Assembly (NCBI GenBank): GCA_903875465.1
Contig: CAIQWB010000105.1
Coordinates: 1-64,000, forward strand
Direction of reading: 5' to 3'
DNA length: 64,000 nt
Origin: an uncultured Verrucomicrobia subdivision 3 bacterium
GTDB taxonomy: Bacteria; Verrucomicrobiota; Verrucomicrobiia; Limisphaerales; UBA11358
Shown here: positions 33,933-61,089 of the stretch, piece after piece
How positions within the stretch are numbered: position 1 is the stretch's first letter
Layout: each line of letters opens with the position of its first letter
Translations under genes and position numbers: made by a program
Notes under the pieces: generated by a model
The model's database searches: none
Seen by the model: only the letters and a program-made list of their open reading frames with translations
What the model was told of the DNA's origin: nothing

Positions 33933-33939
33933 TTTTTTT

Positions 33940-35040: not shown

Positions 35041-35049
35041 TTTCCCATC

Positions 35050-36759: not shown

Positions 36760-36772
36760 ACCCCTTACTACC

Positions 36773-39814: not shown

Positions 39815-39992
39815 TAATGATATGTGTCGCATCTTGAATTACCAACTGTGCCGCACCCAGCAAACGGTGTCCGTGGACTGGCATGATTGTGCCTGCATGA
39901 TCCCCGTCATGGTCCAAAGTCCCAAATTAAAACTACCATCGCTTAATTTGCCCGCGTCCCCAGTTTCCTCCCCCAAAGTCATGTGTCGCTCT

Positions 39993-40823: not shown

Positions 40824-40828
40824 TTGCT

Positions 40829-41782: not shown

Positions 41783-41824
41783 GGACCGGATGTTGAGGGA
41801 TGAGCGAAGCCTAAAGAATTTCTG

Positions 41825-42748
41825 ATGAAAATACGCACCACACATTGCCGGATTCAGTTGGCAGCCTGCGCCCGGGCCGGGCGCGCCGGGGCGGAACTTT
41901 CAAACTCCCCGCTGCAAACTTCAGTCCCGCCACTGCGGAACCAACCTGCCCGCCGCCCTGGCGTGGCGGGCTTCACGATGGTGGAAATTGCCATTTGCCT
42001 GGCCATTATCGGTCTGGCGTTGGTGGCGATTATCGGCGTCCTGCCGATTGGGATGAACGTGCAGCGGGATAATCGCGAGGAGACGGTCATCAACCAGGAT
42101 GCCACCATTTTGCTGGAGTCCATTCGCAGCGGCGAGCGCGGCGGGACCGATTTGACGAACTATGTCTATGCGATCACCAATTATGCGACCACCTATAATG
42201 GGGCCGGCCTGCAAACTGGATTCCATGTTTACGGATATACGTATCAAGGCTCCGCGGTCGATGCCACCCCCATTCCGTTTGCCCTGACCAATAATGCCCG
42301 CATCATTGGACTGTTGAGCACCCCGGAATATCTGAATGGGGTTACGCCCCTGAACAGCCTCTTGGGCGGTGGCACCAGCAACCATGTATTTGCTTATGTT
42401 CACTCCATGAGTGGACCGGCCGTGGAAAAGCCGCCGCAGGATAATGCCATTTTGGTCGGTGATTCATTTACCTACCGGGTGCTCGCGGTGAACGCGCCGC
42501 TGGCCACGGATACCAACCTGGTGTCCCTGACCCCGGCCCAGCAGGCCTACAGCCGGCAGCTGGCTGCCAACTTGCATGAGTTGTCCCTGACCTTCCGCTG
42601 GCCCGTGCGGCCGAATGGCAACATCGGTTCGGATGGCCCGCGGCCGCAAACCCAGCGCACGCTGATTGCCGGAAACATCGCCCCCGCCGACGATGACGGG
42701 CAAAATTTGTTTTATTACCAATCGCAAACGTTCACCAACCTCCCGTGA
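41825..42748 (+). CDS. GspI/PilV-like pseudopilin (Verru_Chthon cassette protein B-like)
   Basis: 307 residues. The leader ends GVAG, followed by FTMVEIAICLAIIGLALVAIIGVLPIGMNVQRDNREET, the GspI/PilV-type N-terminus found in cassette B-type proteins. The remainder is Asn/Thr-rich and of unknown fold, with a C-terminal LHELSLTFRWPVRPNGN strand region typical of minor pseudopilins. Its TGA overlaps the GTG of the next gene (GTGA, 42745-42748). Confidence 0.75.
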   Translation: MKIRTTHCRIQLAACARAGRAGAELSNSPLQTSVPPLRNQPARRPGVAGFTMVEIAICLAIIGLALVAIIGVLPIGMNVQRDNREETVINQDATILLESIRSGERGGTDLTNYVYAITNYATTYNGAGLQTGFHVYGYTYQGSAVDATPIPFALTNNARIIGLLSTPEYLNGVTPLNSLLGGGTSNHVFAYVHSMSGPAVEKPPQDNAILVGDSFTYRVLAVNAPLATDTNLVSLTPAQQAYSRQLAANLHELSLTFRWPVRPNGNIGSDGPRPQTQRTLIAGNIAPADDDGQNLFYYQSQTFTNLP

Positions 42749-43728
42749 AACCCCGCCTGAACATGCCAAATTCATTGGAACTTAACCGCGCTCCGGGCGG
42801 GCGGGCGGGGTTCTCGTTGATTGAAATATTGCTGGTCACGGTGTTGTTGTCGCTGATCATGCTGGCCCTGATGTCGGTGTTCAATACGACGCAGAATGCC
42901 TTTCGAGCGAGCATCACGCAGACCGATGTCCTGGAGGGGAGTCGCGCCACGATGGATCTGATCAGCGGGGATTTGCGGCAAATGTATCCGTCGGGCGGAT
43001 CCAATGCCTTTTTGGCTTTCCCCAATTCTGAGCCTTACTTTTTGGCTGGGGGCTACAATCCGCCGTCCGCGCCGTTGAATTTTTATCTGAGCTCTCCCAT
43101 CTCTACGATTGCGCAAAGCTTGATCGGAGTTTCCAACGGCCAGTTGCGCACCAACCAGGTGCAAAGCTTTTTCATCCTGAGCCGCCAGAATGACATTTGG
43201 CGCGGAGTGGGTTACGTGGTGGATCCTAATTCCGACAAATATATTTTTCCTTTATACCGCTACGATTCCTTTGGCTCTTCGATTCTACCAGCCCGCCCCA
43301 CCGCCTTTCAGCTGTTCACGAATTTCCTCTATGTAACCACTTTAAGTCCCGTGCAAAAGAATCTGGACTTCAGCACCAACGTGAATCACCTGCTGGACGG
43401 CGTCCTCCATTTAAACCTGCGCGCCTATGGCACCAACGGGGTTTGGCTGACGAACGGGTATGGTCGTGGCCAGTCGGTGGTGGTGCAGAATGCCCGGTTT
43501 TTCCCGCCGGCGAGCGGCGAAGTGGCGATGTACATGTGCAGCAACACCCTCCCCGCCTCCGTGGAAATTCAAATGGCGGTGATGGAGGATCGTTCGTTGC
43601 AGCGCGCCTCCTCCATGCCCATGAACAGTGTGGTGCAGAGTAATTACCTGGCGCAGCAGGTGGGCAAATTGCACCTGTTCCGGCAGCGGGTGACGATTCC
43701 CAATGTGGATCCGGCGGCGTATCAATGA
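42745..43728 (+). CDS. GspJ-like pseudopilin (Verru_Chthon cassette protein C-like)
   Basis: 327 residues from a GTG start that overlaps the preceding stop. A short leader ends GGRAG, followed by FSLIEILLVTVLLSLIMLALM and TDVLEGSRATMDLISGDLRQM, the GspJ pattern of an N-terminal helix running into the R-x-x-x-D-L region. QVQSFFILSRQ and VEIQMAVMEDRSLQRA are typical GspJ-type strands. It is probably a minor, tip-proximal pseudopilin, interacting with the GspI-like and GspK-like proteins beside it. Confidence 0.78.
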   Translation: MKPRLNMPNSLELNRAPGGRAGFSLIEILLVTVLLSLIMLALMSVFNTTQNAFRASITQTDVLEGSRATMDLISGDLRQMYPSGGSNAFLAFPNSEPYFLAGGYNPPSAPLNFYLSSPISTIAQSLIGVSNGQLRTNQVQSFFILSRQNDIWRGVGYVVDPNSDKYIFPLYRYDSFGSSILPARPTAFQLFTNFLYVTTLSPVQKNLDFSTNVNHLLDGVLHLNLRAYGTNGVWLTNGYGRGQSVVVQNARFFPPASGEVAMYMCSNTLPASVEIQMAVMEDRSLQRASSMPMNSVVQSNYLAQQVGKLHLFRQRVTIPNVDPAAYQ

Positions 43729-43749: not shown

Positions 43750-46700
43750 ATGAAAATCAGATTACATAAAAACACCGAGGGCATTGCCCTGGTCATCACG
43801 TTGATCATGCTGGCGGTCACGCTGGTGATGGCAGTGGCGTTCCTGGCCATCAGCACGCGCGAACGCGGTTCGGTGACCAGCAGCACCGATGCGAATCATG
43901 CCCGGCTGGCCACCGAGGCCGCCCTGGCGCACGCCGAGGCCCAGGTCATTGCCAGCATTGTCGCCACCACCAACGCCTATAATTTTGGGATGTTTGTCTC
44001 CACAAATTTTATCAACCGCTATGGCTTTGACCCGGGTGCGGGCGCGAATCCCACCAATGTGAATTATGATTATGAAGCCGCCGGCGGGTCGCTCTCCCCG
44101 TCGGAACTTCAGCAGAATATCGCCAACTTGGAATATTTGCCCCGCGCGCCCGTGTTTGTCCCCACGAACCCGCAGGGGAACACCGATTTCCGATATTACT
44201 TGGATCTGAACCGCAACCACCGGTTCGATGACACGGGCAACATCACCAACATGATGTTTATTGCGGACAAGTTCACGACCAATGGCTTGATCTCGGCCGT
44301 GGGCGATCCACAGTGGATCGGCGTGCTGGAGCATCCCGACCAGCCGCACGGGCCATTGAATCCGTTCATCGCGCGCTATGCCTTTATCGCGGTGCCGGTG
44401 GGAAATACGCTGGATATCAATGCCATTTATAATGACGCCACGCGGCCCGACCAATTCATGCAGCCGGGGAAAGACGGCTTTATCCGCAACGAGGGCGTGG
44501 GTTCGTGGGAAATTAATCTGGCGGCTTTCCTGGCCGACCTGAACACGAATGAATGGGACGCCGTGAATTCGGACGGCATTTATAATTACCAGACCGCTTA
44601 CAATCTCAACAATCTGGGCGGCACCGCCCTGCCCAATACCGGCGGGGCCTTTGATGATGCCTTGTCCATGTTGCGCTACCGTTATGCGGACGGGATTTTT
44701 AACCAGCCGTCCCTAAATTCACTCTATTATAATTTCCCGAATTTGATCGATGCGGGGAACCTGACCACGGCCCATGGCAATACCATTGACGAGTACAGCG
44801 ATGGTCCGCTGATGACCAATAGTTATTTGCCCTTGGTGCCGAACAACCCCAACGCCTATTACCATCCAGACCAACCCTGGCCCGGGGCGGATAATACCAA
44901 CCACTTTTTCGGGCTCTCCGATTTTTTCAATCCGAACATCTTCCGACCCGCCGGCTATGTGGCACCGACTATTCCGGTGTTTACCGACCGGCTCTTGTTT
45001 GCCGGGACAAACATTCCGGCCGGCGCGACCGAGCCGCCGACCTACGATCGCTACACCTTTTACCGGATGCTGGAGCAACTGGGCTCGGACAGCGCCCCGC
45101 AAGTGGGCAAGCTCAACATCAATTACAACAATGTCGATGTACTGGGGGATGTGCTCCCCGCCCTGGCCGGGGCGCAAGGTGCCAGCCTGAATCTGTGGAC
45201 CAATGCCCAGACGTTTTTCACCACGGCAGCCGATCTGATGTTGCGCAGTTATTCCACCAACTGGGCGCTGGCCAATTATTTCGCCTACACCAACACCTTT
45301 GGCGCCATCACGACGAACGCCTTCGGGATTCATAACATTCCGGTGCTGGTGAGCGGGCAGTTTGTTTACACCCCGTCGGTGCAACGCTTGCTGCAACTGG
45401 CGGCGAATATTTACGACGCCACCACGAACAACCCCTATCCCTCGGTCTTCCGGCCGCAATTCACCAACTATGGGGGGGATATCTATATTGTGGGTTACAC
45501 GAATGTGGCCTATGTCACGGGCTTAAATGACCCTAGTCTGGCCCAGCCCTATGACCTTGCGGCAGTGACGAACAACCCCAGCCTGGATCTTTACAAGATT
45601 AATATTTACGGAGTGCCGTGGATTGCGGGAGCCAAGAAAGGCCTGCCAAATTTCAACGAGCTGAAAATGCAGAACACGGCGCAGGTCACCCGCAAGTTGC
45701 AGTTTACCCGGCCCACCCCCAACCCCAGCAATGCATCCGGTTACAAAACCAACCAGCTCTACATTGTGGGGATCACTAATTATGTGGGGGTGTCCCTCTG
45801 GAATTCCTATGACAAAGATTTTACCGGGGTTTATGGCAACGACGGCATCACCATTTATATGTCGGATAACCTGCGCATGGTGCTGACCAATGACCAGGGG
45901 TATTTCTACAGCCAGATTACCAATTTACAATTCTATGCCAGCATCGGCCTCTGGCCAGGCTCGGCTTGGACCACCGCCACGGCGGATGTTCCCGCCCCCG
46001 TTCCATCCTCGTTTATTGCCACCAATTGGTCTTATGCCTTTCTGCCGGAGTCGGCTTATCAATTTCAGAATAATAATTTTGTGCCGAATTCAAATCTAAA
46101 CCCGCCTTTCGAAACGAACTATGTCGGCACTCCGCCGGTGCCGCAATTGCCGAATTTCGGATTGTCGACCACCAACTGGATTCAAGCCTTCGTTCTGGAT
46201 ACACCTCCCAGTGGCAAGACTCCTGACGGTTATCCACGGGTGATTGATTATGTGCAATTAAGCGGTCCCTCGCGCACCCGGAGCCTGAATGCGGAGCTGG
46301 CCGATCCAGTTTATCCGGATAAAACGGCCGCCCGTTACATGTGGAGTACCAATGGATATTCAGGCGCAGCCGCCCCGCCTTATGGTGTGGTAAACCAGAT
46401 CGTTGTCTCGCAGGGCGGCGCCAATCCGCCTCCGGGCGGGCAATGGGCACCCACGACGCCGAGTCTGCCGACCACGGCAGCGCAAACCGCCTTTTTCTCA
46501 GGCTTTTGGGCGCCCATTTGGAATTATGCCGGGATCCGGCACACCAACAATGAATTGGCCGTGCAAGCCCCATACACGCCCACTCGCACTATTTACGATT
46601 ACACCCTCTGGCAGGCGAATGATCCGCTGGTCCATTATCTCGCCAGTGACTTGAATTACATCGATGCGAGCACCACCGGATTGCAAAAATCAGATACAGT

Positions 46701-47706
46701 GCCTGCCAACATTAAGGTGCCCGGAGCCAATCTGAAGCAAATCGGGGAACGCTACCAACCCTGGGGCTTGTCAGTGCAAATGGCCAAATTGTCCGGCGTG
46801 GATACAAATTCATTTAACCTGGCCTACAAAGACCCCATGGTGCGGGTTTCGGACGATTGGGACTTTCCCACGAATCTCTTCCCCAACATTGGCTGGCTGG
46901 GCCGGGTGCATCGCGGCACCCCGTGGCAGACGGTTTATTTGAAGTCCACGGATATTTTGAGCCAGACCAACTTGTTTACCTCCGGCACTCCCACGATGAA
47001 TCCAGGACTTAAAACCTGGATGGTGTGGAGCGGGGACACCGTGAATCCGTTCGACGCCACGAACACCTCCCCGGCGTATGACCGGTGGCTGTTTGACCTC
47101 TTCACGGCCGCGCCGAATCAAAATGCGACACTGGGCCAGCTCTCCGTCAATCAGCCGCATCTGGCCGCCTGGTCGGCGATTTTCAGCGGGCTGCCGGTGC
47201 TCACCAACAAGGCGGGGACGAACCTCACCCTCTTTGAAATTGCCGGCACGAACGGACCCAATTCCTACCTGGCCTATATTTGGAATTCCATTCTATCGAC
47301 CCGGACCAATCTGAACCTGTTTCCGAAACAGGTCTACCCCCATTTGGGCGATGTGCTGGCGGCTCCGGGCTTGACGGTTCAATCTCCCTTTTTATCCGCC
47401 GCGCAGAATGATCCCGTGCAAATCCAACGTCACACCCTGATCACCGATGAGATGTATGAATGGCTCCCGCAACAGACGCTGGGGCTCCTGAAGGTGGGGA
47501 CGCCGCGCTATGTGGTTTACTGTTATGGCCAGGCCTTGAAGCCAGCCCCAGGCGGCACCCTGGCGGGCGGCACCTATGCCCTGATGAATACGAATTACAC
47601 TGTGGTCGCGGAATCGGCGGTGCGGGCGGTGGTGGAAGTGCAGGGGGCCACGGGGTCGCGGCCCAATGTGGTTTTGAAGAATGTAAATCCGTTGCCGCCC
47701 GATTGA
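43750..47706 (+). CDS. Large GspK/PilX-like protein (Verru_Chthon cassette protein A-like)
   Basis: 1318 residues. The short leader MKIRLHKNTEG and helix IALVITLIMLAVTLVMAVAFLAISTRERG, then ARLATEAALAHAEAQVIA, are a GspK/PilX-type N-terminus with an EG-I cleavage site. The rest, about 1270 residues rich in Asn, Thr, Tyr and Pro, is far larger than normal GspK (about 300 residues) and has no fold I recognise. Size, N-terminus and position after three minor pseudopilins match cassette protein A. It may cap the fibre and present a large surface domain. It ends ten bases before the start of the giant protein, with which it is probably co-transcribed. Confidence 0.72.
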   Translation: MKIRLHKNTEGIALVITLIMLAVTLVMAVAFLAISTRERGSVTSSTDANHARLATEAALAHAEAQVIASIVATTNAYNFGMFVSTNFINRYGFDPGAGANPTNVNYDYEAAGGSLSPSELQQNIANLEYLPRAPVFVPTNPQGNTDFRYYLDLNRNHRFDDTGNITNMMFIADKFTTNGLISAVGDPQWIGVLEHPDQPHGPLNPFIARYAFIAVPVGNTLDINAIYNDATRPDQFMQPGKDGFIRNEGVGSWEINLAAFLADLNTNEWDAVNSDGIYNYQTAYNLNNLGGTALPNTGGAFDDALSMLRYRYADGIFNQPSLNSLYYNFPNLIDAGNLTTAHGNTIDEYSDGPLMTNSYLPLVPNNPNAYYHPDQPWPGADNTNHFFGLSDFFNPNIFRPAGYVAPTIPVFTDRLLFAGTNIPAGATEPPTYDRYTFYRMLEQLGSDSAPQVGKLNINYNNVDVLGDVLPALAGAQGASLNLWTNAQTFFTTAADLMLRSYSTNWALANYFAYTNTFGAITTNAFGIHNIPVLVSGQFVYTPSVQRLLQLAANIYDATTNNPYPSVFRPQFTNYGGDIYIVGYTNVAYVTGLNDPSLAQPYDLAAVTNNPSLDLYKINIYGVPWIAGAKKGLPNFNELKMQNTAQVTRKLQFTRPTPNPSNASGYKTNQLYIVGITNYVGVSLWNSYDKDFTGVYGNDGITIYMSDNLRMVLTNDQGYFYSQITNLQFYASIGLWPGSAWTTATADVPAPVPSSFIATNWSYAFLPESAYQFQNNNFVPNSNLNPPFETNYVGTPPVPQLPNFGLSTTNWIQAFVLDTPPSGKTPDGYPRVIDYVQLSGPSRTRSLNAELADPVYPDKTAARYMWSTNGYSGAAAPPYGVVNQIVVSQGGANPPPGGQWAPTTPSLPTTAAQTAFFSGFWAPIWNYAGIRHTNNELAVQAPYTPTRTIYDYTLWQANDPLVHYLASDLNYIDASTTGLQKSDTVPANIKVPGANLKQIGERYQPWGLSVQMAKLSGVDTNSFNLAYKDPMVRVSDDWDFPTNLFPNIGWLGRVHRGTPWQTVYLKSTDILSQTNLFTSGTPTMNPGLKTWMVWSGDTVNPFDATNTSPAYDRWLFDLFTAAPNQNATLGQLSVNQPHLAAWSAIFSGLPVLTNKAGTNLTLFEIAGTNGPNSYLAYIWNSILSTRTNLNLFPKQVYPHLGDVLAAPGLTVQSPFLSAAQNDPVQIQRHTLITDEMYEWLPQQTLGLLKVGTPRYVVYCYGQALKPAPGGTLAGGTYALMNTNYTVVAESAVRAVVEVQGATGSRPNVVLKNVNPLPPD

Positions 47707-47716
47707 GTTTTTGTTT

Positions 47717-50700
47717 ATGAATGCTCGTTATTTAAAACGGATTTTGCTGGTGCTGGCGGTGGTTCTGGTGGCTTGGCTGTGGTGGCCGCGGGCAGCGGTC
47801 AAGCCGGTGGCGGTCCGCCGCACGGTGGTCGCCGCCCAACCGGCGGTGCCGTTGGTTCCGGCGGCTAAGCAGCCGGCGAACTTGTTTCTGCATCCCACAG
47901 TGGTTTCCAATACGGTGGCCGGGGCCGCCGCGACCAACAAATTTGCCCGGCGGTTGACGAATACGTCGCGCTCACTGCATGAATTGATGCATGAGCCGCG
48001 GGCGATTTTGCTGGCGAATGCCTTGCTGGACACCCGCTTGCCGCTGAATCTGACCATGCCCAAAAACTTGCAGTCCCGGGGTGAACCTGGTGCCTTTATC
48101 GTCCAGGCCAACGGGGCGATTGGTGCCGATTTTCGCGCCCTGCTGGCGGCCTCCGGTGCCGAGATCGTTTCTTACATTCCGAACAACGCCTATCTGGTGC
48201 GCGCCTCGGCGGGGCAGGCGGCGGCGATATCGGCCAGCGGGTTGACGGCGGCGGTGCTGCCGTATGAGCCGTACTACAAGGTGTCAGCGAGTTTGCTGGC
48301 GCAGGCCACTCAGAACCAGCCGTTGCCGGCGGAAGCCTTGCTGAATTTGGGAGTGTTCAAGGCAGACGCGGCGGCCACGGAAGCGGCGGTGGAAAAAATG
48401 GGCGGGGTGATCGTGGCGCGGGATGCCTCGCCGTTCGGTCCGATTTTCCGGGTGTCGCCGCCGGCGGCGTGGACCGCTCTGGCGCAGTTGCCCGGGGTGC
48501 AGGTGGTGGAACCCACCTATCGCCGCCGCGAGGCCAATGACTTGGCACGGGTAACCCTCGGGATTTCCGCGGACACCCTGACGAATGCCAGTTATCTGGG
48601 ACTGAATGGCAAAAATGTAACAGTGGAGGTGAACGATTCCGGCATCGACCAGACGCATCCCGACTTTTCCCTTACCGGCACAGCGGAGACCGGACCTGCC
48701 GGGGGCTCCCGCGTCATTGGCGATTCACTGGGCAGTTTGGTGGACACGGACGGTCACGGCACCCATGTGGCCGGTATTATTGCCGGCAACGGCTCGGAGA
48801 GCTACTCGGTGACGAATTTGCCGAGCGGTTCGCTGACCAATGCGGATTTCCGGGGCAAGGCACCTTTGGCCACCTTGTTTTCGGTGGGCTTTGAAAATGG
48901 GAATGACACGCCTTACAACACCGCAGTGCGCAGCGCCTTCACCGATATCTCCGACATTTCTGATTATTATTTGCAATCCATGGCAGCCCGGACGAATGCC
49001 CTGATTTCCAACAATAGCTGGACGTATGCCGGGGATAGTTATTACGACCTCGCGGCGGCGAGTTTTGACGCCGCCGTGCGCGATGCCCTGCCGATGGTTC
49101 CGGGGTCGCAACCGGTGTTATTCGTCTTTGCCGCCGGCAATAGCGGTGGGGGCAACGATGACGGCGCGGGCGGGAATCCCGACTCGGTGGAATCACCCGG
49201 CACGGCCAAGGACGTCGTGACCGTGGGGGCGCTGGAGCAATTCCGGAACATCACGAACATTGTCACGGATCAATTTGGCAACTCGAACGCCGTCTGGCAG
49301 GCCGGGACGGATTCCGGCACCCAGGTGGCGGGCTATTCCTCACGCGGGAATGTGGGCGTGGGGGTGGAGGGCGATTTCGGGCGGTTCAAGCCGGACGTCG
49401 TCGCGCCGGGCACCTTTGTGGTGTCCACCCGTTCGAGCCAGTGGAATGACAACGCCTATTATAACCTGACCAACACGGAAACGACCGATTATCCCGCCGA
49501 GGTGGTGGACACGAATAGTTTGAATTATTACAACGTTCCAGTGCCGCCCAACGCGGTGGGCGTGACCATCCAAATCAATCCGAACAAGCTCTCCCCGAAT
49601 CCCTTTGTCAACCTGCCGATTTACGTGGAGCAGGCCACCTATCCGATTCCCCCGACGTATGATTTCCTGAAGTCGAACAACGTTGTGAACATTCCTCCGG
49701 ATGGTCCAGCCGGTTACCTCGGCCAAATTGTGGGCAACGGCTTCTGGTTTGCCATCGGCGACAGCACGAACATCCCGGTGAATTATGACGTGCAAGTCTC
49801 GATTTTAGTGACCAATGATGTCGGGGATTATTACCTGGTGCTGAGCAATCTGAACGCCACCCTGGCACCGTATTACCGTTATGAAACGGGCACGAGCATG
49901 GCGGCCCCGGCGGTTTCCGGCATGCTGGCGTTGATCCAGGACTATTTCACGAACACCTTGCAATCGATCCCCAGCCCGGCGCTGCTCAAGGCCATGCTCA
50001 TCAACGGGGCGCGCGTGACGGGCGGGAATGATTTTGCCGTGACGAACAACCCCAATTTCCAAGGCTGGGGGCTGGCGAATTTGCCCACCTCACTGCCCGC
50101 GGCCCTGACCAACCAGGCGACTCACCCCACGACCACACCGTTTTTCTACCTGGATCAAAGCCCGACCAATGCCCTGGCCACCGGGGATAGCCAGACCTTC
50201 AAGATTACCGTGGATTCGGGGGCGAATGCCGATCCGCTGCGCTTCACCCTCACCTGGACCGATCCGCCGGGCGACCCGAACGCGGCGATCAAGCTGGTGA
50301 ACAATCTGGACATCGTGGTGACCAACCTCGACAGCGCTTATGGCAGCAACACCACCCTGCATTATGTCTATTATGGGAATAATTTTGCGACCGCCGGCAA
50401 TCCGCCCTTCAGCCTGGCGGCCGGGACGAACGGTGCCCCGAACCTGGATGCGGTGAACAACATCCGCAACATTTACCTGCCCTCACCCCTCTCCACGAAT
50501 TATACGGTGACGGTTGTGGGCCGCAGTGTGAATGTGAACGCCGTTTCCGCGCAGACGAACAATGTGGTGCAAGATTATGCCCTGGTGATTTCCGCCGGGG
50601 ACGGTTACGTGAGCAACGCCCTGACGGTGGTCGCGGGGCCCGTGGTCAGCAGTCTGAATCAGGACACCACCTACGTGGCGACCACGAATGCCCCGTTGAT

Positions 50701-53700
50701 GAACCAGACGGCTGGCGAGAACACGCCCTTGCTGGGGACCAACTCCGTGGTTGGCGTGAACACCAATTCCGCCCTGGGCAGCAACAGCGTGGTGACGCTG
50801 GGCATGACCAATCAATGGCATTTTTACGTGGTGACCAACACCCTCGGCTACGCCAACGCCGCGTTCCTGACCTTCTTCCCTTATAACCTGTCGGTGCCCC
50901 GTATGGGGACTCTGGCCGGCACCACCGCCCAGGCCGTGCGGCCGGAGGGGGACATTGACCTGTACGTCGCGAGCGAGCCGGGGCTGCTGAACCTCGATCC
51001 GACGGTAATCTCCAATTGCGTGAATGGCGTTGGCGGCGACGCCGCGTCGCTCGGCCAGGGCGGCACGGAATTTGTGGCGTACTCCAACTCGGTGCAAAAC
51101 CAGGTGTATTACATCGGGGTGAAATCCGAGGATCATCAGGGCGTGAATTATGGCTTCCTGCCGGTGTTCAGCGCGTATCCCTTCAGTACCCTGAATCCGG
51201 ATGGCAGTCAGTCAGTGTATGGCTTGACGCTGCCGGCGAACATCCCCGATGGCAATCCCAAGAAACCCGGGGTGGTGAATGTGTTTGCCCTCGCTCTGTA
51301 CCCGATGACCGTTAACGAGGTGATCGAGACCAACGGAATCTGGCACCAAAATTACGGCGATCTGGCCGGGCAATTGTCGCATGCGAGTGTCATCGATGTG
51401 CTGAACAACCATGATGCCTATGGCAACACCCTCGGGTTGGACCCCATCATCTATTATGATGCGATCAACAATCCCATTAACACGCCGATCGGCCCGGTTT
51501 CGGTCTTGAACCCGCACCCATCGGACGGGCCCGGGAGCCTGGTGAATTTCCAAGGCCAGCCCGCCGTGGGGCCATGGATCCTGACCGAGACGGACAATTC
51601 GTACACCCAAACCGGGAGCGTCTCGGTGTTCGGCCTGCGGATTTATCCGCACAACCCGGCGGACAAGGGGATCCATGTCTATATCTCCGGGCAGTCGTCC
51701 TATAATGATTATGTCGATGTGCCGGCGGGCGTCACGAATTTCACCTTGAGCGTGACCAATCAGACCCTCCCGCCCACCCTGCCGCCGCTGGAACTCTACG
51801 AGCGTTTTGAAGCGCAGCCCACGCCGCAGCCGCAGCCCACGGTTTATGACGAGATGGCGGTTTGCAGCAACGGTGTGCCGCCCGGCGGATCCATTTCCGT
51901 TTCGCCCACCTCACTGCCGCCGTTGCAGCCGGGGCGCTATTACTTCACGGTTTACAACCCCAGCACCAGTCCGGCGACCAATGTTTACATCATTGCCAAG
52001 TTCGATTACGCGGCGGTGCACGGGTCGGCCGATTTCCTCAGCACCGGGTCGGTGCCCTTGAACGATGATGCGGTGATGACCAATACCCTGGTAATCACGA
52101 ACACGGAAAAAATTTATTCGGCCGCCGTTGGGGTGGTGCTGGATCATCCCCGGGTGTCGGATCTCACCCTGACGCTGCTGGATCCCACTGGCCAGCGGTA
52201 CATACTCTTTGAAAACCGCGGCGGCCCGAACGCCCAGAATCTGGGCCATCTGAATATTACCACGAACTTCTTCGGCACCGTGTCGGCGGGCGATCAAAAG
52301 GGCAACACCAATGCCATCGGGCCGGTCCCGACCCAGGGCACGATCATCATCAATTATGATTTTTACCAGGTGCCGGACCAAATTGATGTCTATTACGATG
52401 GCGTGGATATTTTCAGCAAGTTTGTGAACAACGCCGGCCAGTTTGTGATTCCCTACGGGCCGGGCACGGGGACTAACATCACCATCGTAATGGACCAGGG
52501 CGGGGACCCGTCCGGGCCATCGCTCTGGACGTACACGCCCTCGGTCGTGAACGAAAATTACACCTACCTGACGTTTACCGATGACACGAATCTGGCGCAA
52601 ATCCTGATTAAGTTTGCCCTGCCGCCGTTTGATTTGACCGATTTGGGCACGAATTACACCCTGAGCAATTTCGAGCTGACGACGAACGGCAATTATCTTG
52701 CCCCAACGAATATCTACGATGCCTTTGGCGGCTGGCTGGTGCCGACGAACATTGCCGGTGTGGGGACTAATTTTATTACGCTGACCAACAACGAGGTGAG
52801 TGTGGTGACGGATCCGGCGTCCTCCTACGACGGTAGTAATTTCCTGGCCCTGGCGAATGGGACCATCACGCGCCTGCTGACGACCGTGCCGACGCGCCAG
52901 TATTCCGTGAGCTATTCCTACCGTGGCGCGGGCATTGCCGGTTGGTGGCGCGGTGAAGGCGATGCCAACGACAGCGCCTATCCGGAAACCAACGGCAACA
53001 ACGGGCGCTTGATCGGGCGCTTTAACTTCCCCGCCGGCGAGGTGGGCCAGGCGTTCCAGATGGCGGATACCGGCCATAATTATCAATTTGCCGGGACGAA
53101 CAATTACGTCCAAATCCCGCAGTCACCCTACCTGGATGTGGGCACTGGGAGCGGCTTGACCGTGGAAGGCTGGATTAACCCGACCAACCTGTACACGCAA
53201 GCGCCCTTGCTGGAATGGCTGGCCCGGGTGCCGACCAATTCCGCGATCACCAACATATCTATTCTCGCCGGGCCGTTTTTGAATCGGTCAAGCAGTCACT
53301 ATTATTATCTGCTGGCGGCCACCAACTGGACAACTTCCGAACGCTGGGCCACGAACATGGGCGGGCATCTGGCCACGATCAATGATGCCAATGAGCAGAG
53401 TTGGGTCTACAGCACCTTTGGCAACTATGGCGGCACCAATCGCAACTTGTGGATCGGCTTGAATGATGCCCTGGCAGCAGGCAACTATGTCTGGACCAGC
53501 GGGCAGCCGTCCGGCTATCGCAACTGGCGCACCGGCGAACCCACGGATTTGAACGGCGACCATTACACCCTGATCCTGGGGGCCGCGAATACCACCCCCG
53601 GCCTGTGGGTCACCGCAGCCGCCAATGGCGCCCAGACCGGCGGTCCGGCAACCACCAATAATTACGGCGTCGTCGAAGTGGATGCTCTCCAACCCAACGG

Positions 53701-56700
53701 CGTGCAATTGTGGGTGTCCGTCACCAACTCGCCCGCCACCGGGGCGGGTATTCTCAACAGCAACGGCTGTTTGTACGCCAATCTCGTCGACGCCACCAAT
53801 GGCGCTCATGAAATCTGGTCCACGCCCGGGTTGGTCCAAAGCAACGTGTACCAGCACGTCGCATTGACCTATAACACCAACTCGGGCGTGGCCACGCTCT
53901 ACTACAATGGCACCAATGTGGGTTCCACCAACCTGGGCGTGTTCATTCCCAAGACCACCGGCGACGTGCTGCTCGGCAAGGACATGAGCCTCCTGGCGAA
54001 TAATTTCTTTTCCGGTGCGATGGACGAAATGAGCATCTACCGCCGGGCGCTCTCGGACGCGGAAATTGGCGCGATTTACAACGTGTCGGCCCAGTCCACC
54101 AACAACCCCGGCACGAATGGATCCGTGGCCGCCTTGGGCAAGTTTAATCCCCAGTATCACCCGGCGATGAGCCTGGCCATGGCCACGGTGACGCTGGACA
54201 CCCGCACGAACCTGATCTTTGGCGACAACACCAACTGGCAGCGCGTGACCTACACCTTCATCGCCACCACCAACGCCACTTTGTTCCAGTTCACCGGCTT
54301 GGAACCCGGCATATTGCTGGATGACTTTACCGTGAGCGAAGCCGCGCTGGGTAATCTGTATTACCATCCCGAGGAACCGCTGTCCGGCTTGGTGGGCGAG
54401 AGCGCCGCTGGCACGTGGACCCTCGAAATTCAGGACAACCGGGTAGGGGCCACCAACGCCATTCAAAGCCTGGTCAGTTGGGAGTTGAATCTCGTGTTGC
54501 AGACCAATACCCCGGTCCCGCTGACATTGTATCCCCAAATGCCCGGTACCAACACCATTCCTCCCGGCCAGACTGCCTACTTCACGGTGCCGGTGCCGGA
54601 TTGGGCACATTTTGCCACCAACCTGCTGGTCTCCGCCAACGCCCCGGTGAATATGTACTTCAACCAGACCAATTTCCCGAGCGGGACCGGTCCGGGCGAT
54701 GTCACCCTGCTGGCGAACCAAACCAGTGGCCCTGGTCAGCCAATCATGATGACCAATGGCCTGTACCCGGCGAACCTGCCCCTGTACACGAATCAGTCCT
54801 ATTTCCTCGGCGTTCAGAACATCAGCACGGTGCCGGTGACCGCTGTGGTGGAAGTGGATTACGATATCACCGCCTTGACCAACAGCGCCCCGCTCACCGC
54901 CACCCTGGCCACCAATGAAGCCGTCCGCTACTTCTCATTTGACGTCAACTCCAACGCCTATGCGGCCACCTTCCAGTTACTCAAACTCTCTGCCAATGCG
55001 AATTTGGTGGCGAGCTTTGGAACGCCGCTGCCCACCCCCACCACGGCGGCCTATGGCAGTTTCAATTCCTCCAACGCGGATCAGAGCATTTACGTCCTGA
55101 CCAACTCCACCCCCGTGCCGCTGATGGCCGGTCGGTGGTATCTGGGGGTTTACCGCACTGCCCCTGGCCCGGTCACTTACAGTGTGCTGGCCAAGGAACT
55201 GGACACGCCCACACCCACTGTCATTAGTCTGACGAACAACGTGCCCTTTACCTTCACGATGGGCCCCGGTGCTGCGCTGACGAACTTCTTCCTGTTCTCG
55301 CCCACCAATTACGCCCGTTTGGCCCCCGCCATGCATTTTGAGTTGTACCATCTGTCGGGCAATGGCGATTTGACCGTGCAAACCAACGGCCTGCCCTTGA
55401 CCCCGCCGTTTTACCAAAGCAGCCAGGAACCCGGCCAGACGTCCGAGTACGTCACCGTGCGCACGAACAGCGCCCTGACCAATCTCACCGGCCTGTGGTA
55501 TCTGGGCGTTCCCAACCACGAGCTGACGAACCTCACCTACACCATTCTCGCCGCGGTGGATACGAATGCCCAATCGGCGTTCCCGGGCGCCGTGGGCACG
55601 GGGTCCGAAACCCCCGGCGGCCGTGGCGGTACCAACATTTATCATGTCGTCAATTTGAATGACGATGGTCCGGGCAGCTTGCGGTACGGCCTCAATACGG
55701 TCGGCACCAACCCCGCCAGCATCCTGTTCGATGTGTCCGGTAATATCGCGCTGCAATCCCCGCTGGTGATCACCAACGCCTACCTGACCATTGCCGGCCA
55801 GACGGCCCCGGGCGACGGCATTACCCTGCAAAATTTCCCGACCCTGTTTTCGGGGGCGCACGATGTTATCATGCGCTATCTGCGCTTCCGTCCGGGCAAC
55901 ACCGGCACGAATGTTACCTCCATCCTTTACGACGGTTTTAATGGGCCAACCTTGAGTTCGGAATGGCAGGCGACCCTGCCCAGCCCCGCCTTGAATGCAA
56001 GCTCCCAGGCCACCTATGTGGGCGCGCCGAATTACGGCTTTGAGACCCTCACCACCAATACCGTGTTACGTTTGACCAACACGCTCACCGACCTGACCCG
56101 CCGGGGCTGGAGCACGGCCTCCAGCTTTACTGGCAGTAATTTTGTTTACGATGTCCGCTTCAACACCCTCGTGCAATCCGCCGCGACCAGCATCGATGGA
56201 TTCCTCGAAATCTGGCTCATTAATGCCACCAATAGCAGCCTGTACGACATCGTTTCGCCCTTTGGCGGGAGCTATGATGCCAGTAAAACCTTCTGGACCG
56301 GCAGCAGTATTGACGGCAGTGGCGGCAATGCCTCTGGTACTTATAATTACCAAGACAACACTTGGTACCACTTGGTGTTGAAAGCCAATGGCAACCAAAA
56401 CATTCACGCCTCCCTCACCGCTGATGATGGCACCGAATTGGCTGGCGCGGACTTTAGCCACACTGCCGCCGCCTTCGGCTCCGGCTTTCGCTTGGGCTTG
56501 TCCCAGTCGGTGGGTTTACCCGGGTCACCTTATCCCGTGGATGCTGCGGTGGATTACGCGTCACTGACCGGCCAGATCACCGAAAATCTGCCGGCGAATG
56601 CCAACTTTGGTGTCGGTGACTCACTGGCTTTTAGAAATGCCCGCAACATCATCATCGACCACGTCTCCGCCTCCTGGAGTACGAACGCCCTCGTGGAAGT

Positions 56701-59700
56701 GCTCAATTCCAGCAATATCACCGTGCAGTGGTCGGTGCTCGCCGACAGTTTCCACAGCACCAATGGCCTGGCCGGGCAGGGGTCGGTGCTGCGGTTTGGT
56801 AATGGTGCTTTGAGTTTCAACCACAATCTCTACGCCAATAACTACACCGCCAATCCGCTCTTGGGCGATAATCTGGGCCTGGATTTTGTCAATAACGTCG
56901 TTTACAACTGGGGCATTCTCCCCGGTGCCAGCATCACCAACGACCCGGTGGCCGATCCCAAGGGTTTCACCAACCTCCTTAACTTTGCCGCCAATTACTA
57001 TCTGGCCGGAACCGCTTCCGCGACCAATTACATCGCCTTCTGGGGCGGCAACATCAATACCTGGATATTCCAGACCAACAACTTCATTGATGCCTACACC
57101 ACTCAACAAACCGTCGGGACCAATACCCTGTTCATCTTGAATGGATCCGATACTGGCTGGAGCATGTTCACCAACCAGTATACTGGCTTTGGCCTGCCGT
57201 TCACGCTGCCCACGCCGGATGGCACTAATACGGTGTTCCCCTCCGCGCCCGCCGAGCCCGCCTATCAGGCTTATGAGCGCGTCCTGGATTTTGCCGGGGC
57301 CCAACTCACCCGCGACCGGGTGGATTTGTCCACCATCAACCATGTGCGCACCCAGTCGGGTCGCTTCATCGATTCCCAAGACCAGGCGGGCGGCTGGCCC
57401 GGCCTGAGCAGCCAGCCTGCGCCCCTCGACACGGACCAGGACGGCCTCCCCGATTATTGGGAGACCACCTTTGGCCTCAACCCGACCAACTCCGCGGATG
57501 GCGCCAGCCTGGTTCCGAACACCGGCTTCAGCCAATTGGAAACCTACCTCAACTGGCTGGCCAGCCCGCATGCTGTGACCATCAAGGCCAGGCCGGTCAG
57601 TGTGGACTTGTTCACCCTCGCCGGTGGCACCGGTCGTTTGTCGTTCTTCGTCACCAATGCTCTGAACGGATCGGTGCGGCTGACCAATAATGTCATCACC
57701 AATTATTTCCTGGCGAATGGCATCTATACCAACTCCGTGGTAATCCGGAGCAACAGCCTGGCCATCTTCACGCCCACGAATACCTACACTAGCTCCCTCA
57801 CCAATCCGGCCGGCTTTGACTTCTATGTCACCAACCGCGACACCCTCGCTTCCCTCGGACCGGTGAGCGTCAGTGTGGTGGTCAGTGCCACCAATCTCGC
57901 CTCGGCCCCTGTCCTGATTGATCTGACCAATGGCGTGCCTTACACTCTGACCAATGGCAATCCCGGGGCCGTCCTGGCCAGCATGTTCCGCTACACCCCC
58001 ACCCATGCCTCGCCGGGAGCGCTGGCTTTTGAGTTGTACGCCCTCAGTGGGAATGCCGGACTCGTCGTGCAAACCAACGGGCTGCCCGTGGCTCCCAATT
58101 ACTTCGCCAGCAGCACCAATGGCGGGACCAACGCCGTATTGATCCTGGTGCAAACCAATGCCGACTTGACGGATATTGGCAGCCGCATCCTGCCCAACCT
58201 CAATGGGCAATGGTACCTGAGCGTGCCGAATTACACCTCCAATAACCTCACCTATACCATCTTGGTCCAGGAGATTCCGACCGCCCCGACGATCATCGAC
58301 CTGACCAACAACGTGCCGTTTACCTACACCGCTGGTCCCGGGCCCGACCTGACGAATTTCTTCCGCTTCACGCCGACGGGTTCGCCCAGTTCCGTGCTGT
58401 TCCAATTGTATAATCAGACGGGCAATGGCGACCTCACCGTCCAGACCAATGCCCTGCCGTTCGCCCCGGTCCTTTACCAGGCCAGCCAGCAACCGGGCAA
58501 TAGTCCCGAGTCGATTCTGATAACTACAAATGGCGGACCCGCCAGCCTGAATGCCCGGTGGTACTTGGGCGTGCCTAATAACGAGGCCACCCAGATTACC
58601 TACACCATTATGGCCGGGGCAGTTCCCAATCTTTCGGGCACTGTCACGCCGGGTACACCCCTGACCAACTCCGTGCCGCCGAACAGCACTAACTTCTACC
58701 TCGTCAATGTGCCCATCACTGCCGATTGGGTGACCAACACCCTGCTGTTTGCCACGGGGCCCTTGAACGTTTGGTTCACCACCAATACTCCCCCAACCAC
58801 CGGAAATCCAACCGATGGCTTGCTGCTCACCAACGCCACCAGCGGGCTGAATGTCTTTGGCACCAACCTCACGAACCAGGTATTTGGCCAGGCGCAATTG
58901 GTGCCCGGTTCCTTCTATTATTTGGCGCTGGTCAACACCAACCTGAATGTTCCTGTGACCAATGCCGTTCAAGTGGACTTCCATTTGGTTCCGCCGGCGG
59001 CCTCGGCGCCGACCGTCATTACGCAATCCGCGACCAATATCACCGCCTTCGCCGCGACCTTGCAGGCCTCGGTAATTCCCCATGGCGGCACCACCACGGT
59101 CTGGTTCGCCTATGGTCTCACCACGAATTATGACTCCTTCTCCACCACCACCGTGCTGAGTAGCAATTTGTACAGCACCTGGCCGCTGGCAACGGTGGTG
59201 GGCAGCTTGTTGCCGGGTAACACCTATCACGTTGAAGCGATTGCTACCAATAATCTCGGCACCAACTACGGTGGCGATGTGACCTTTACCACACCGCCCG
59301 CTCCCCCGGCCGTTACCACGCTGGCCGCCAGCAATATTGTTGCCACGGCCGCCTCGCTCTGGGCCCAGGTCAATCCGAATGGTGCCGCCAGCACCGTCTG
59401 GTTTGAGTATGGCACCGACACCAGCTACGGCTTCACCACCCCGGTCACTGTGCTGGGCAATAACCTGAATCTTTCGCAAGCCGTGACCTTCGGCATCGCG
59501 AATCTCCAACCCGCACTCCTGTATCACTTCCGTGCGGTGGGTGCGAACCCCGCCGGCACGAACTACGGTCCGGATGTGTCGTTTACCACCCCGCCGGCCG
59601 GGCCATCGGTGCTTACCACGCCCGCCGTCAATGTCACCGCCACGGGTTCCACCCTCCAGGCTTTGGTGGTGCCGAATGGCGCCGATACCACGGTAAGGTT

Positions 59701-60988
59701 TGCCTACGGCCTGGACACGAGCTACGGCAGTTATTCGGGTAACGTCCTGGTAAATGGCAATCTGACCGGTCCCCAACCGGTGGGCCTGAGTGTGGGCAAC
59801 CTCCAACCCGGGCTGGTGTATCACTTCCAAGCCATCGGTATTAATGCTTATGGCACCAATTACGGTGGCGACCTGACCTTCACCACCCTGGCGGCGATCC
59901 CCGCCGTCACCACGCTCGCCGTAACGAATCTGACCGCCACCAACGCCACCTTGCCGGCGCTCGTCAACCCCAATGGGCTGGCCACCGCCGTGTACTTTGC
60001 CTATGGCACCACCACGAATTACTTCGCCACCACCACTCCGGTGCCGTTGACGGGCAGCTTGACCGCGTCGCAATTAACCAGTGCCCTGCTGTCCGGTTTG
60101 CTGCCCGGCGTGGTTTATCACTATCAGGCGGTGGCCACCAACGGCGTGGGTACCAACTACGGCGGCGACCAGAGCTTCACCAACCCGGTTTCCCCGGTTG
60201 AGATTGCCAGCATCGTGGCCACCAACCAGGGCGGAATCAATGGTTACCTGCTGACCTGGCTGGCGCCGACCAATTACCAGTTCAAGGTCCAGTGGAACGC
60301 CGCGCTCGGCTCGGTCACCTGGATCAGCTTTACCAACCTGGTGAGTTACACCGGTCCGGTCTCAACCACGAATGGGCTGTTCACGTATTTCGATGATGGC
60401 AGCCAGAGCAGTGGCTTGGGAGCGTTGCGCTTCTACCGGTTGCTCCTCAACCTCCCGCAGGTCTTCACCACCCCGCCGCAATTGCCCCCGAGCGGTGCCG
60501 TGTATCGGGTCAATCCGCTGACGCCCTGGACGGTGAATAATGCCGCCACCGATTCCAACGCTCTCGCCGTGCTCAGCTACACGCTCACCAGCACTGTGAC
60601 CGGCACCAACCAGCCGGTCATTGGCACCAACAGCGGTATCATTACCTGGACCCCAGACTTGAGCCAGGTCGGGCAAACCGCTGTGCTGACCACCGTGGTG
60701 ACCGACAACGGAGCCATCCCGCTCAGTGCCACCAACTCCCTGACCGTGATCGTGAATCCGATCCCGTACTTTTATTCCGTGAAAGTCAATACGGAGGGCG
60801 TGACCCTGCAATGGTCGGGAGCCGCGAGCAATCAGTTCCAAGTGGGCTATACCACCAACCTCGCGAGCCCGTGGACCTATGTGCCCATCGCGCCGCCGTA
60901 CCTGACCTCGTCTTCGACGAACTTCACGTATCAGGATACCAACGCCGTGCTGGGAACGAAGTTCTACAAGCTGCGCCAGTTGCCGTAA
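47717..60988 (+). CDS. 4423-residue exoprotein: subtilisin, P domains, LamG with lectin insert, beta-helix and FnIII-like repeats
   Basis: Starts at the ATG 47717 (a TTG two codons earlier is not needed). A basic start and hydrophobic helix (about 7-24) form a signal or anchor. A subtilisin S8 domain has Asp307 (NDSGID), His347 (DGHGTHVAG) and Ser727 (GTSMAAP); His to Ser spans 380 residues, much longer than the usual 160. Then come a beta-sandwich (about 800-970), a P/Homo-B domain (about 1440-1590), a LamG domain (about 1740-2120) with a C-type-lectin-like insertion (about 1850-1995), a second P-type segment (about 2208-2257), PPC-like modules, a pectate-lyase-like beta-helix (about 2635-3235, itself interrupted), more PPC-like modules (about 3405-3760), four FnIII-like repeats (about 3765-4158) and a domain ending FYKLRQLP. 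It is probably the cargo or adhesin of the adjacent pseudopilin machine. Confidence 0.85.
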   Translation: MNARYLKRILLVLAVVLVAWLWWPRAAVKPVAVRRTVVAAQPAVPLVPAAKQPANLFLHPTVVSNTVAGAAATNKFARRLTNTSRSLHELMHEPRAILLANALLDTRLPLNLTMPKNLQSRGEPGAFIVQANGAIGADFRALLAASGAEIVSYIPNNAYLVRASAGQAAAISASGLTAAVLPYEPYYKVSASLLAQATQNQPLPAEALLNLGVFKADAAATEAAVEKMGGVIVARDASPFGPIFRVSPPAAWTALAQLPGVQVVEPTYRRREANDLARVTLGISADTLTNASYLGLNGKNVTVEVNDSGIDQTHPDFSLTGTAETGPAGGSRVIGDSLGSLVDTDGHGTHVAGIIAGNGSESYSVTNLPSGSLTNADFRGKAPLATLFSVGFENGNDTPYNTAVRSAFTDISDISDYYLQSMAARTNALISNNSWTYAGDSYYDLAAASFDAAVRDALPMVPGSQPVLFVFAAGNSGGGNDDGAGGNPDSVESPGTAKDVVTVGALEQFRNITNIVTDQFGNSNAVWQAGTDSGTQVAGYSSRGNVGVGVEGDFGRFKPDVVAPGTFVVSTRSSQWNDNAYYNLTNTETTDYPAEVVDTNSLNYYNVPVPPNAVGVTIQINPNKLSPNPFVNLPIYVEQATYPIPPTYDFLKSNNVVNIPPDGPAGYLGQIVGNGFWFAIGDSTNIPVNYDVQVSILVTNDVGDYYLVLSNLNATLAPYYRYETGTSMAAPAVSGMLALIQDYFTNTLQSIPSPALLKAMLINGARVTGGNDFAVTNNPNFQGWGLANLPTSLPAALTNQATHPTTTPFFYLDQSPTNALATGDSQTFKITVDSGANADPLRFTLTWTDPPGDPNAAIKLVNNLDIVVTNLDSAYGSNTTLHYVYYGNNFATAGNPPFSLAAGTNGAPNLDAVNNIRNIYLPSPLSTNYTVTVVGRSVNVNAVSAQTNNVVQDYALVISAGDGYVSNALTVVAGPVVSSLNQDTTYVATTNAPLMNQTAGENTPLLGTNSVVGVNTNSALGSNSVVTLGMTNQWHFYVVTNTLGYANAAFLTFFPYNLSVPRMGTLAGTTAQAVRPEGDIDLYVASEPGLLNLDPTVISNCVNGVGGDAASLGQGGTEFVAYSNSVQNQVYYIGVKSEDHQGVNYGFLPVFSAYPFSTLNPDGSQSVYGLTLPANIPDGNPKKPGVVNVFALALYPMTVNEVIETNGIWHQNYGDLAGQLSHASVIDVLNNHDAYGNTLGLDPIIYYDAINNPINTPIGPVSVLNPHPSDGPGSLVNFQGQPAVGPWILTETDNSYTQTGSVSVFGLRIYPHNPADKGIHVYISGQSSYNDYVDVPAGVTNFTLSVTNQTLPPTLPPLELYERFEAQPTPQPQPTVYDEMAVCSNGVPPGGSISVSPTSLPPLQPGRYYFTVYNPSTSPATNVYIIAKFDYAAVHGSADFLSTGSVPLNDDAVMTNTLVITNTEKIYSAAVGVVLDHPRVSDLTLTLLDPTGQRYILFENRGGPNAQNLGHLNITTNFFGTVSAGDQKGNTNAIGPVPTQGTIIINYDFYQVPDQIDVYYDGVDIFSKFVNNAGQFVIPYGPGTGTNITIVMDQGGDPSGPSLWTYTPSVVNENYTYLTFTDDTNLAQILIKFALPPFDLTDLGTNYTLSNFELTTNGNYLAPTNIYDAFGGWLVPTNIAGVGTNFITLTNNEVSVVTDPASSYDGSNFLALANGTITRLLTTVPTRQYSVSYSYRGAGIAGWWRGEGDANDSAYPETNGNNGRLIGRFNFPAGEVGQAFQMADTGHNYQFAGTNNYVQIPQSPYLDVGTGSGLTVEGWINPTNLYTQAPLLEWLARVPTNSAITNISILAGPFLNRSSSHYYYLLAATNWTTSERWATNMGGHLATINDANEQSWVYSTFGNYGGTNRNLWIGLNDALAAGNYVWTSGQPSGYRNWRTGEPTDLNGDHYTLILGAANTTPGLWVTAAANGAQTGGPATTNNYGVVEVDALQPNGVQLWVSVTNSPATGAGILNSNGCLYANLVDATNGAHEIWSTPGLVQSNVYQHVALTYNTNSGVATLYYNGTNVGSTNLGVFIPKTTGDVLLGKDMSLLANNFFSGAMDEMSIYRRALSDAEIGAIYNVSAQSTNNPGTNGSVAALGKFNPQYHPAMSLAMATVTLDTRTNLIFGDNTNWQRVTYTFIATTNATLFQFTGLEPGILLDDFTVSEAALGNLYYHPEEPLSGLVGESAAGTWTLEIQDNRVGATNAIQSLVSWELNLVLQTNTPVPLTLYPQMPGTNTIPPGQTAYFTVPVPDWAHFATNLLVSANAPVNMYFNQTNFPSGTGPGDVTLLANQTSGPGQPIMMTNGLYPANLPLYTNQSYFLGVQNISTVPVTAVVEVDYDITALTNSAPLTATLATNEAVRYFSFDVNSNAYAATFQLLKLSANANLVASFGTPLPTPTTAAYGSFNSSNADQSIYVLTNSTPVPLMAGRWYLGVYRTAPGPVTYSVLAKELDTPTPTVISLTNNVPFTFTMGPGAALTNFFLFSPTNYARLAPAMHFELYHLSGNGDLTVQTNGLPLTPPFYQSSQEPGQTSEYVTVRTNSALTNLTGLWYLGVPNHELTNLTYTILAAVDTNAQSAFPGAVGTGSETPGGRGGTNIYHVVNLNDDGPGSLRYGLNTVGTNPASILFDVSGNIALQSPLVITNAYLTIAGQTAPGDGITLQNFPTLFSGAHDVIMRYLRFRPGNTGTNVTSILYDGFNGPTLSSEWQATLPSPALNASSQATYVGAPNYGFETLTTNTVLRLTNTLTDLTRRGWSTASSFTGSNFVYDVRFNTLVQSAATSIDGFLEIWLINATNSSLYDIVSPFGGSYDASKTFWTGSSIDGSGGNASGTYNYQDNTWYHLVLKANGNQNIHASLTADDGTELAGADFSHTAAAFGSGFRLGLSQSVGLPGSPYPVDAAVDYASLTGQITENLPANANFGVGDSLAFRNARNIIIDHVSASWSTNALVEVLNSSNITVQWSVLADSFHSTNGLAGQGSVLRFGNGALSFNHNLYANNYTANPLLGDNLGLDFVNNVVYNWGILPGASITNDPVADPKGFTNLLNFAANYYLAGTASATNYIAFWGGNINTWIFQTNNFIDAYTTQQTVGTNTLFILNGSDTGWSMFTNQYTGFGLPFTLPTPDGTNTVFPSAPAEPAYQAYERVLDFAGAQLTRDRVDLSTINHVRTQSGRFIDSQDQAGGWPGLSSQPAPLDTDQDGLPDYWETTFGLNPTNSADGASLVPNTGFSQLETYLNWLASPHAVTIKARPVSVDLFTLAGGTGRLSFFVTNALNGSVRLTNNVITNYFLANGIYTNSVVIRSNSLAIFTPTNTYTSSLTNPAGFDFYVTNRDTLASLGPVSVSVVVSATNLASAPVLIDLTNGVPYTLTNGNPGAVLASMFRYTPTHASPGALAFELYALSGNAGLVVQTNGLPVAPNYFASSTNGGTNAVLILVQTNADLTDIGSRILPNLNGQWYLSVPNYTSNNLTYTILVQEIPTAPTIIDLTNNVPFTYTAGPGPDLTNFFRFTPTGSPSSVLFQLYNQTGNGDLTVQTNALPFAPVLYQASQQPGNSPESILITTNGGPASLNARWYLGVPNNEATQITYTIMAGAVPNLSGTVTPGTPLTNSVPPNSTNFYLVNVPITADWVTNTLLFATGPLNVWFTTNTPPTTGNPTDGLLLTNATSGLNVFGTNLTNQVFGQAQLVPGSFYYLALVNTNLNVPVTNAVQVDFHLVPPAASAPTVITQSATNITAFAATLQASVIPHGGTTTVWFAYGLTTNYDSFSTTTVLSSNLYSTWPLATVVGSLLPGNTYHVEAIATNNLGTNYGGDVTFTTPPAPPAVTTLAASNIVATAASLWAQVNPNGAASTVWFEYGTDTSYGFTTPVTVLGNNLNLSQAVTFGIANLQPALLYHFRAVGANPAGTNYGPDVSFTTPPAGPSVLTTPAVNVTATGSTLQALVVPNGADTTVRFAYGLDTSYGSYSGNVLVNGNLTGPQPVGLSVGNLQPGLVYHFQAIGINAYGTNYGGDLTFTTLAAIPAVTTLAVTNLTATNATLPALVNPNGLATAVYFAYGTTTNYFATTTPVPLTGSLTASQLTSALLSGLLPGVVYHYQAVATNGVGTNYGGDQSFTNPVSPVEIASIVATNQGGINGYLLTWLAPTNYQFKVQWNAALGSVTWISFTNLVSYTGPVSTTNGLFTYFDDGSQSSGLGALRFYRLLLNLPQVFTTPPQLPPSGAVYRVNPLTPWTVNNAATDSNALAVLSYTLTSTVTGTNQPVIGTNSGIITWTPDLSQVGQTAVLTTVVTDNGAIPLSATNSLTVIVNPIPYFYSVKVNTEGVTLQWSGAASNQFQVGYTTNLASPWTYVPIAPPYLTSSSTNFTYQDTNAVLGTKFYKLRQLP

Positions 60989-61053: not shown

Positions 61054-61089
61054 CCGCCGGCCAGCTCTTCCTAGCTGGCCGGCGGTTAT
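61054..61089 (+). terminator. Terminator of the giant-protein operon
   Basis: A 13-bp perfect stem (61054-61066 against 61073-61085, CCGCCGGCCAGCT and complement) has a six-base loop and is followed by TTATT. The T run is weak but the hairpin is very stable. Confidence 0.7.

Follow-up and report, generated by a model that had tools for sequence, protein, structure and literature searches.

A giant S8 protease with nested binding-type domains adjoins a minor-pilin operon and may be a filament-linked protease-adhesin

The closest described counterparts of the protein reported here are the PilY1 tip adhesins of Myxococcus xanthus and Pseudomonas aeruginosa, known together with the minor pilins FimU-PilV-PilW-PilX (PMC7541494, PMC13190605) and built of a conserved part and a variable part. 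The M. xanthus PilX, which is without Glu5, is placed beside PilY1 and has been compared with GspK (PMC7541494). In Streptococcus sanguinis, PilB and PilC are modular pilins that equip a type IV pilus with lectin-type adhesion modules (PMC8179133, PMC9934059), and the Kil/Tad pilus tips of Myxococcus are pilus-end complexes with variable domains (PMC12075869). PilY1 and such modular or interchangeable pilus tips may serve as working analogies for the protein considered below (PMC13190605, PMC9934059, PMC12075869).

The locus lies in a window (the whole stretch of DNA that was analysed, 64,000 nt) from an uncultured Verrucomicrobiota bacterium, in which a gene for a 4,423-residue protein, hereafter called the giant, directly follows a set of type IV filament genes. 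The main features, other than the domains detailed further below, are these:

32211..38086, + strand: two PilB-type ATPases and one PilT-type ATPase of the type IV filament, with a PilC-type platform protein
38966..43728, + strand: five prepilin-type genes with Glu5
43750..47706, + strand: PilX/GspK-like protein, 1,318 aa, with a prepilin-type N-terminus without Glu5; the adjacent partner
47717..60988, + strand: the whole giant gene, an S8 protease carrying binding-type domains that are nested and exchangeable, 4,423 aa
47738..47788, + strand: N-terminal hydrophobic segment, a signal peptide or signal anchor without a prepilin motif (from sequence)
59084..60271, + strand: four FnIII-like repeats of 99 aa each (from repeat spacing; weak Pfam matches)
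60749..60985, + strand: C-terminal FYx tail, found in most homologues whose C-terminus is reached and in two other large window proteins

The giant is encoded by a single uninterrupted frame from the ATG at 47717 to the stop at 60988 (4,423 codons). A colinear full-length homologue (locus L038; 4,447 aa) is 69% identical to it and many more homologues share 40-60% identity, so the giant is neither a chance frame nor a chimeric assembly. The closest named homologue records are drafts of uncultured Verrucomicrobia subdivision 3 or Limisphaerales, and no near-identical DNA was found among the plasmids of PLSDB. Pfam searches with the whole protein retrieved Peptidase_S8 (8e-37), Laminin_G_3 (1.2e-17), P_proprotein (4e-12) and Lectin_C (3.3e-7), and sequence matches in the PDB comprised KP-43-type subtilases and the pectate lyase 9buj, whose match is broken into two pieces by a gap. 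The gene is real and intact. A preliminary description, made from the sequence, had listed FnIII-like modules among its parts, and rightly so; the four repeats are spaced by exactly 99 aa. The modules it saw joined in one chain are indeed present, except that they are nested rather than arranged in tandem. Between the giant and a convergent inositol-monophosphatase-type gene there is a GC-rich hairpin of 13 pairs (61054-61085), which is terminator-like on the minus strand only and scores no higher than in shuffled sequences.

The giant gene starts 11 bases after the PilX/GspK-like gene, and upstream of the five pilins are PilC-, PilB-, PilT- and PilB-type genes; PilM and several secretins are encoded on other contigs of the genome. 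A survey of 188 genomes of the class gave clear homologues of the PilX-like protein and the giant in the window's order only, and there the two genes adjoin on the same strand in all 30 genomes that have both; likewise, the giant stands beside the PilX-like gene in 16 of the 16 fetched loci with a PilX-like match. The gene thus sits, as PilY1 does, beside minor pilins and a PilX-type gene. The giant itself lacks at its N-terminus the prepilin cleavage motif that a type IV pilin or a modular pilin would have. Three orphans homologous to the large C-terminal part of the PilX-like protein (L183:7183-10107, L185:7374-9920 and L187:6670-9315) are without a pilin-type start and have no adjacent giant.

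The combination of a conserved core, a pilus partner and a variable array of binding domains suggests a filament-linked protease-adhesin. On balance we consider it probable, if by no means certain, that the giant is a secreted S8 protease-adhesin in the PilY1 place of a minor-pilin operon, shown on or exported by the type IV filament and diversified by domain insertion; we infer both its pilus location and its ligands. The main rival is release as a substrate of a type II secretion system: a type II-secretion-like pseudopilus with a GspK-like tip would push the giant out as a soluble exoenzyme that binds and digests particles away from the cell. The PilX-like protein, being large and without Glu5, is as GspK-like as it is PilX-like, the genome has several secretins, and the binding modules and the FYx tail, shared with other large proteins of the window, are what such an exoenzyme might carry. 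The strict, order-wide adjacency of the two genes, however, is more in keeping with a structural partner than with one substrate among many, and the cluster contains a PilT-type gene; we regard release as rather unlikely.

The FYx tail deserves separate mention. A tail ending FYx-L/V also occurs on the unrelated window proteins 71-3850 and 18784-23709 and may be a sorting signal of the order; its presence there speaks against filament display inasmuch as it would fit general secretion equally well. The former protein has about eleven DUF7507/DUF11-type repeats and a W..FYR tail resembling that of the giant. The latter (1,641 aa), encoded near the pilus operon, has a pro-kumamolisin activation domain (S53 type) followed by Ig-like and other surface domains, and a further large protein (25312-29241; 1,309 aa) has four LamG and two Ig-like domains.

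The N-terminal third of the giant contains the protease core:

48593..49462, + strand: S8 catalytic domain, first part, aa 293-582, with D307, H347 and N475 (Pfam and alignment)
49463..49870, + strand: insert preceding the catalytic Ser of the S8 domain, aa 583-718; L049 and several further families do not have it
49871..50551, + strand: S8 domain, second part, with S727, then a KP-43-type jelly roll, aa 719-945

The catalytic triad (D307, H347 and S727) and the oxyanion N475 of an S8 subtilase (PF00082) are all present, as the preliminary description had stated for the triad, and the core shows none of the degeneracy that would have spoken against it. Among 18 homologues, Asp and Ser are kept in all, His and the oxyanion Asn each in 17, and the complete triad in 17; the protease of the window giant thus appears intact and under strong conservation, as judged from the alignment. 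In L044 the catalytic His is lost and an in-frame TAG stop (L044:15038-15040) lies inside the pectate-lyase-like (PL) part, which resembles decay, and this is likely a decaying copy of the giant. The insert before the catalytic Ser is about 135 aa long. The order has a further S8 protein whose size hardly varies (about 1,720-1,850 aa in many genomes; L184:3692-8956 and L186:4215-9362); it has neither the S8 insert nor a split P-domain.

A fixed protease joined to variable cargo would also be expected if the S8 domain were a maturation protease, acting mainly on the giant itself or on pilins, with the remainder being a plain adhesin. We identified no cleavage site or processing signal in support of such a role, which we deem quite unlikely, and the broad binding modules fit secreted degradative subtilases as well, such modules being typical of these enzymes too.

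In the segment following the protease core, domains are placed inside domains:

51254..51682, + strand: first P-domain-like copy, free of any large insert, aa about 1180-1322 (its match is weak in the window and exceeds the Pfam cutoff in L174)
52055..52291, + strand: second P-domain, N-half, aa 1447-1525 (PF01483 positions 4-62)
52292..52636, + strand: beta-sandwich X, aa 1526-1640, without a Pfam match; a second C-type lectin domain instead in L042
52637..52936, + strand: DUF642-like carbohydrate-binding-type domain, N-half, aa 1641-1740 (a related L040 domain matches DUF642)
52937..53218, + strand: LamG domain, N-half, aa 1741-1834
53219..53698, + strand: C-type lectin domain inside LamG, aa 1835-1994 (PF00059, 4e-8)
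53699..54085, + strand: LamG domain, C-half, aa 1995-2123 (PF13385 positions 46-150)
54086..54346, + strand: DUF642-like domain, C-half, aa 2124-2210
54347..54511, + strand: second P-domain, C-half, aa 2211-2265 (PF01483 positions 55-86)

The P-domain profile (PF01483) matches as two halves, aa 1469-1525 and 2225-2259, about 700 aa apart. As read from relatives, the P-domain holds X and the DUF642-like domain; LamG splits this second domain and is in turn split by the C-type lectin domain. The lectin domain is recognized by both fold and profile (PF00059); of the motifs relevant to Ca2+-dependent sugar binding it has EPT, with WVT where WND is usual, which counts against the protease-adhesin reading. 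Relatives with none, some or all of these inserts indicate stepwise insertion. In L157, X is present and the DUF642-like domain is not detectable; L048 and L056 have no LamG and a whole DUF642-like domain; L049-L053 and L057 have LamG without the lectin; and L038-L041 and L043-L046 have the full set, while in L047, which is ended by the contig edge, the LamG and lectin part is visible. Other relatives fill the same P-domain differently: the second C-type lectin domain of L042 occupies the position of X, and L054 has a tandem of three DUF642-like domains, with LamG splitting two of these. The length of the slot ranges from 152 to 1,109 aa (median 543) in the 50 family proteins with both P halves. 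Elsewhere in the order the P-domain is commonly found whole, and within the giant itself the copy free of a large insert precedes the split one.

The AlphaFold model of the nested block has a mean pLDDT of 64. Its LamG part aligns with 187 of the 206 residues of AbnA domain 4 (Z 18.5) across model residues 297-683, so that in the model LamG is one fold surrounding the lectin. With this model confidence, and with pLDDT below 50 for the insert in the PL part described below, the nesting rests on the sequence and on the intermediates, and the fold match serves as support. Structure-search matches to clostridial neurotoxin binding domains were dismissed as reflecting the common concanavalin-type fold of the LamG part, with no functional meaning. 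The nested appearance could in principle stem from faulty assembly or from weak profile matches, given the fragmented draft state of the genome and the modest scores of the Pfam halves. Such an artefact we consider extremely improbable: the colinear domain order recurs in about a dozen genomes, un-inserted forms exist (L048, L056 and L157), both P halves occur in 50 proteins, and the parts of LamG on either side of the lectin align with a single continuous domain. The colinear homologues likewise led us to reject a chimeric assembly.

A second slot lies further downstream:

55547..55900, + strand: PL1-type beta-helix, first part, aa 2611-2728
55901..56602, + strand: beta-helix insert, LamG-type, SO2946-like_C, aa 2729-2962; other domains or none here in homologues
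56603..57646, + strand: PL1-type beta-helix, second part, aa 2963-3310, in which the active-site motifs are degenerate

The pectate-lyase-like beta-helix announced by the preliminary description is borne out by the sequence match to 9buj (PfPL1; E 1e-24) and by the predicted structure, a right-handed PL1-type helix with Z 46.4 to 9buj over 380 residues at 2.1 A; both halves are predicted with mostly high confidence. The insert matches SO2946-like_C with E 1.9e-5, just below the curated cutoff. The same slot is filled by a DUF642 domain in L040 (E 8e-7; similarly in L044 and L045), by an NHL-repeat domain in L060 (E 3e-10) and by another domain of about 194 aa with a weak fn3_3 match in L039, and it is empty in L041-L043, L046 and L047.

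The fold did not bring the proposed activity with it. The preliminary description had envisaged a polysaccharide-lyase attack on glycoprotein or cell-wall material; the motifs SWSVDE, HGYG and SRNPR, mostly kept in stand-alone PL1 relatives of the order, read SWSTNA, GQG and TANPL in the window giant, the acidic, metal-binding pair being lost together with the histidine and the arginines. An arginine is catalytic in PL1 enzymes (R218 in PelC). The acidic pair is also gone from homologues that have the nested block, some of which retain one Arg. The window beta-helix is thus probably a pseudo-lyase, and this loss, mostly shared by close homologues, makes a binding or scaffold role likelier than lyase attack. 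That the giant is a double enzyme, with an active polysaccharide lyase working beside the protease, would accord with the PL1 fold, the intact protease and the still intact lyase motifs of the giants L066 and L077 (those of L078 and L079 are part-way). As the window protein retains none of the acidic pair, His and Arg motifs, the lyase half is rejected and we hold such a double enzyme to be very unlikely; annotating genes of this kind as pectate lyases is probably wrong.

On a tree of the protease core (52 proteins), the state of the cargo, i.e. the binding part, changes at least 15 times, an approximate count since weak profile matches may miscount some states. Lectin-bearing giants cannot form one clade on this tree, a single origin of the lectin form that tracks the core being rejected (p-AU 0.0009). 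Cargo has thus been gained, lost or exchanged independently of the core. A recent foreign origin of the inserts, sought as odd base composition, was rejected, as GC and GC3 of the individual modules within the giant are near the gene average.

How the giant may work can be outlined as follows. The minor pilins and the PilX-like protein would dock it to, or export it via, the machinery of the type IV filament; its lectin, LamG and DUF642-like modules would attach to extracellular glycans or particles; the protease would cut proteins of the captured target or process the giant itself; the degenerate lyase would serve as a binding or scaffold rod; and domains inserted into fixed loops would diversify the binding part around an unchanging protease core. 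The tethered enzyme of the preliminary description remains plausible, by a different route: the lock to a minor-pilin operon with a PilX/GspK-like partner, which it did not name. More tentatively, it is possible, if somewhat doubtful, that the order at large has a display platform in which a fixed protease sits at the tip of a type IV filament and insertion hot spots (the candidate loops being those of the P-domain, the PL beta-helix and the S8 domain before Ser) swap unrelated, even nested, binding domains, permitting fast changes of targeting with the same enzyme.

If the filament-linked protease-adhesin is real, a large and mostly uncultured order has a pilus-linked protein built on a protease instead of PilY1. 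Function aside, the family provides a natural series for the origin of nested domains, with hosts of fewer or more insertion levels in related genomes; one loop takes several unrelated folds, and rules of domain insertion are directly testable. Among open-licence papers we found neither a description of the giant family nor any account of a protein that stands in the PilY1 place, is based on a protease and has insertion slots and living intermediates. Nested domains as such are already known, with six levels in RNA polymerase (PMC13114784).

Compared with PilY1, with which it shares the minor-pilin operon, an adjoining PilX-type protein without Glu5 and the division into conserved and variable parts, the giant has an S8 protease as its base, is far larger and bears nested inserts; the conserved C-terminal PilY1 domain (PF05567) is not among its Pfam matches, and a search of 59 genomes gave no match, its controls being silent too. 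The S. sanguinis modules are grafted on pilins, whereas the giant is an enzyme without a pilin N-terminus, and the Kil/Tad tips belong to a different pilus class, have no protease core and vary via alternative tip gene clusters. KP-43-type subtilases (1wmd) share the S8 catalytic domain followed by a jelly roll, to which the giant adds the insert before Ser and about 3,400 further residues. PfPL1 shares the beta-helix fold, which in the giant has lost the active-site motifs and received a LamG-type domain. The Si3 insertion of cyanobacterial RNA polymerase is alike in its recursive insertion of domains into domains (PMC13114784); the giant differs in being extracellular, in the kinds of domains involved and in having living intermediates for each step.
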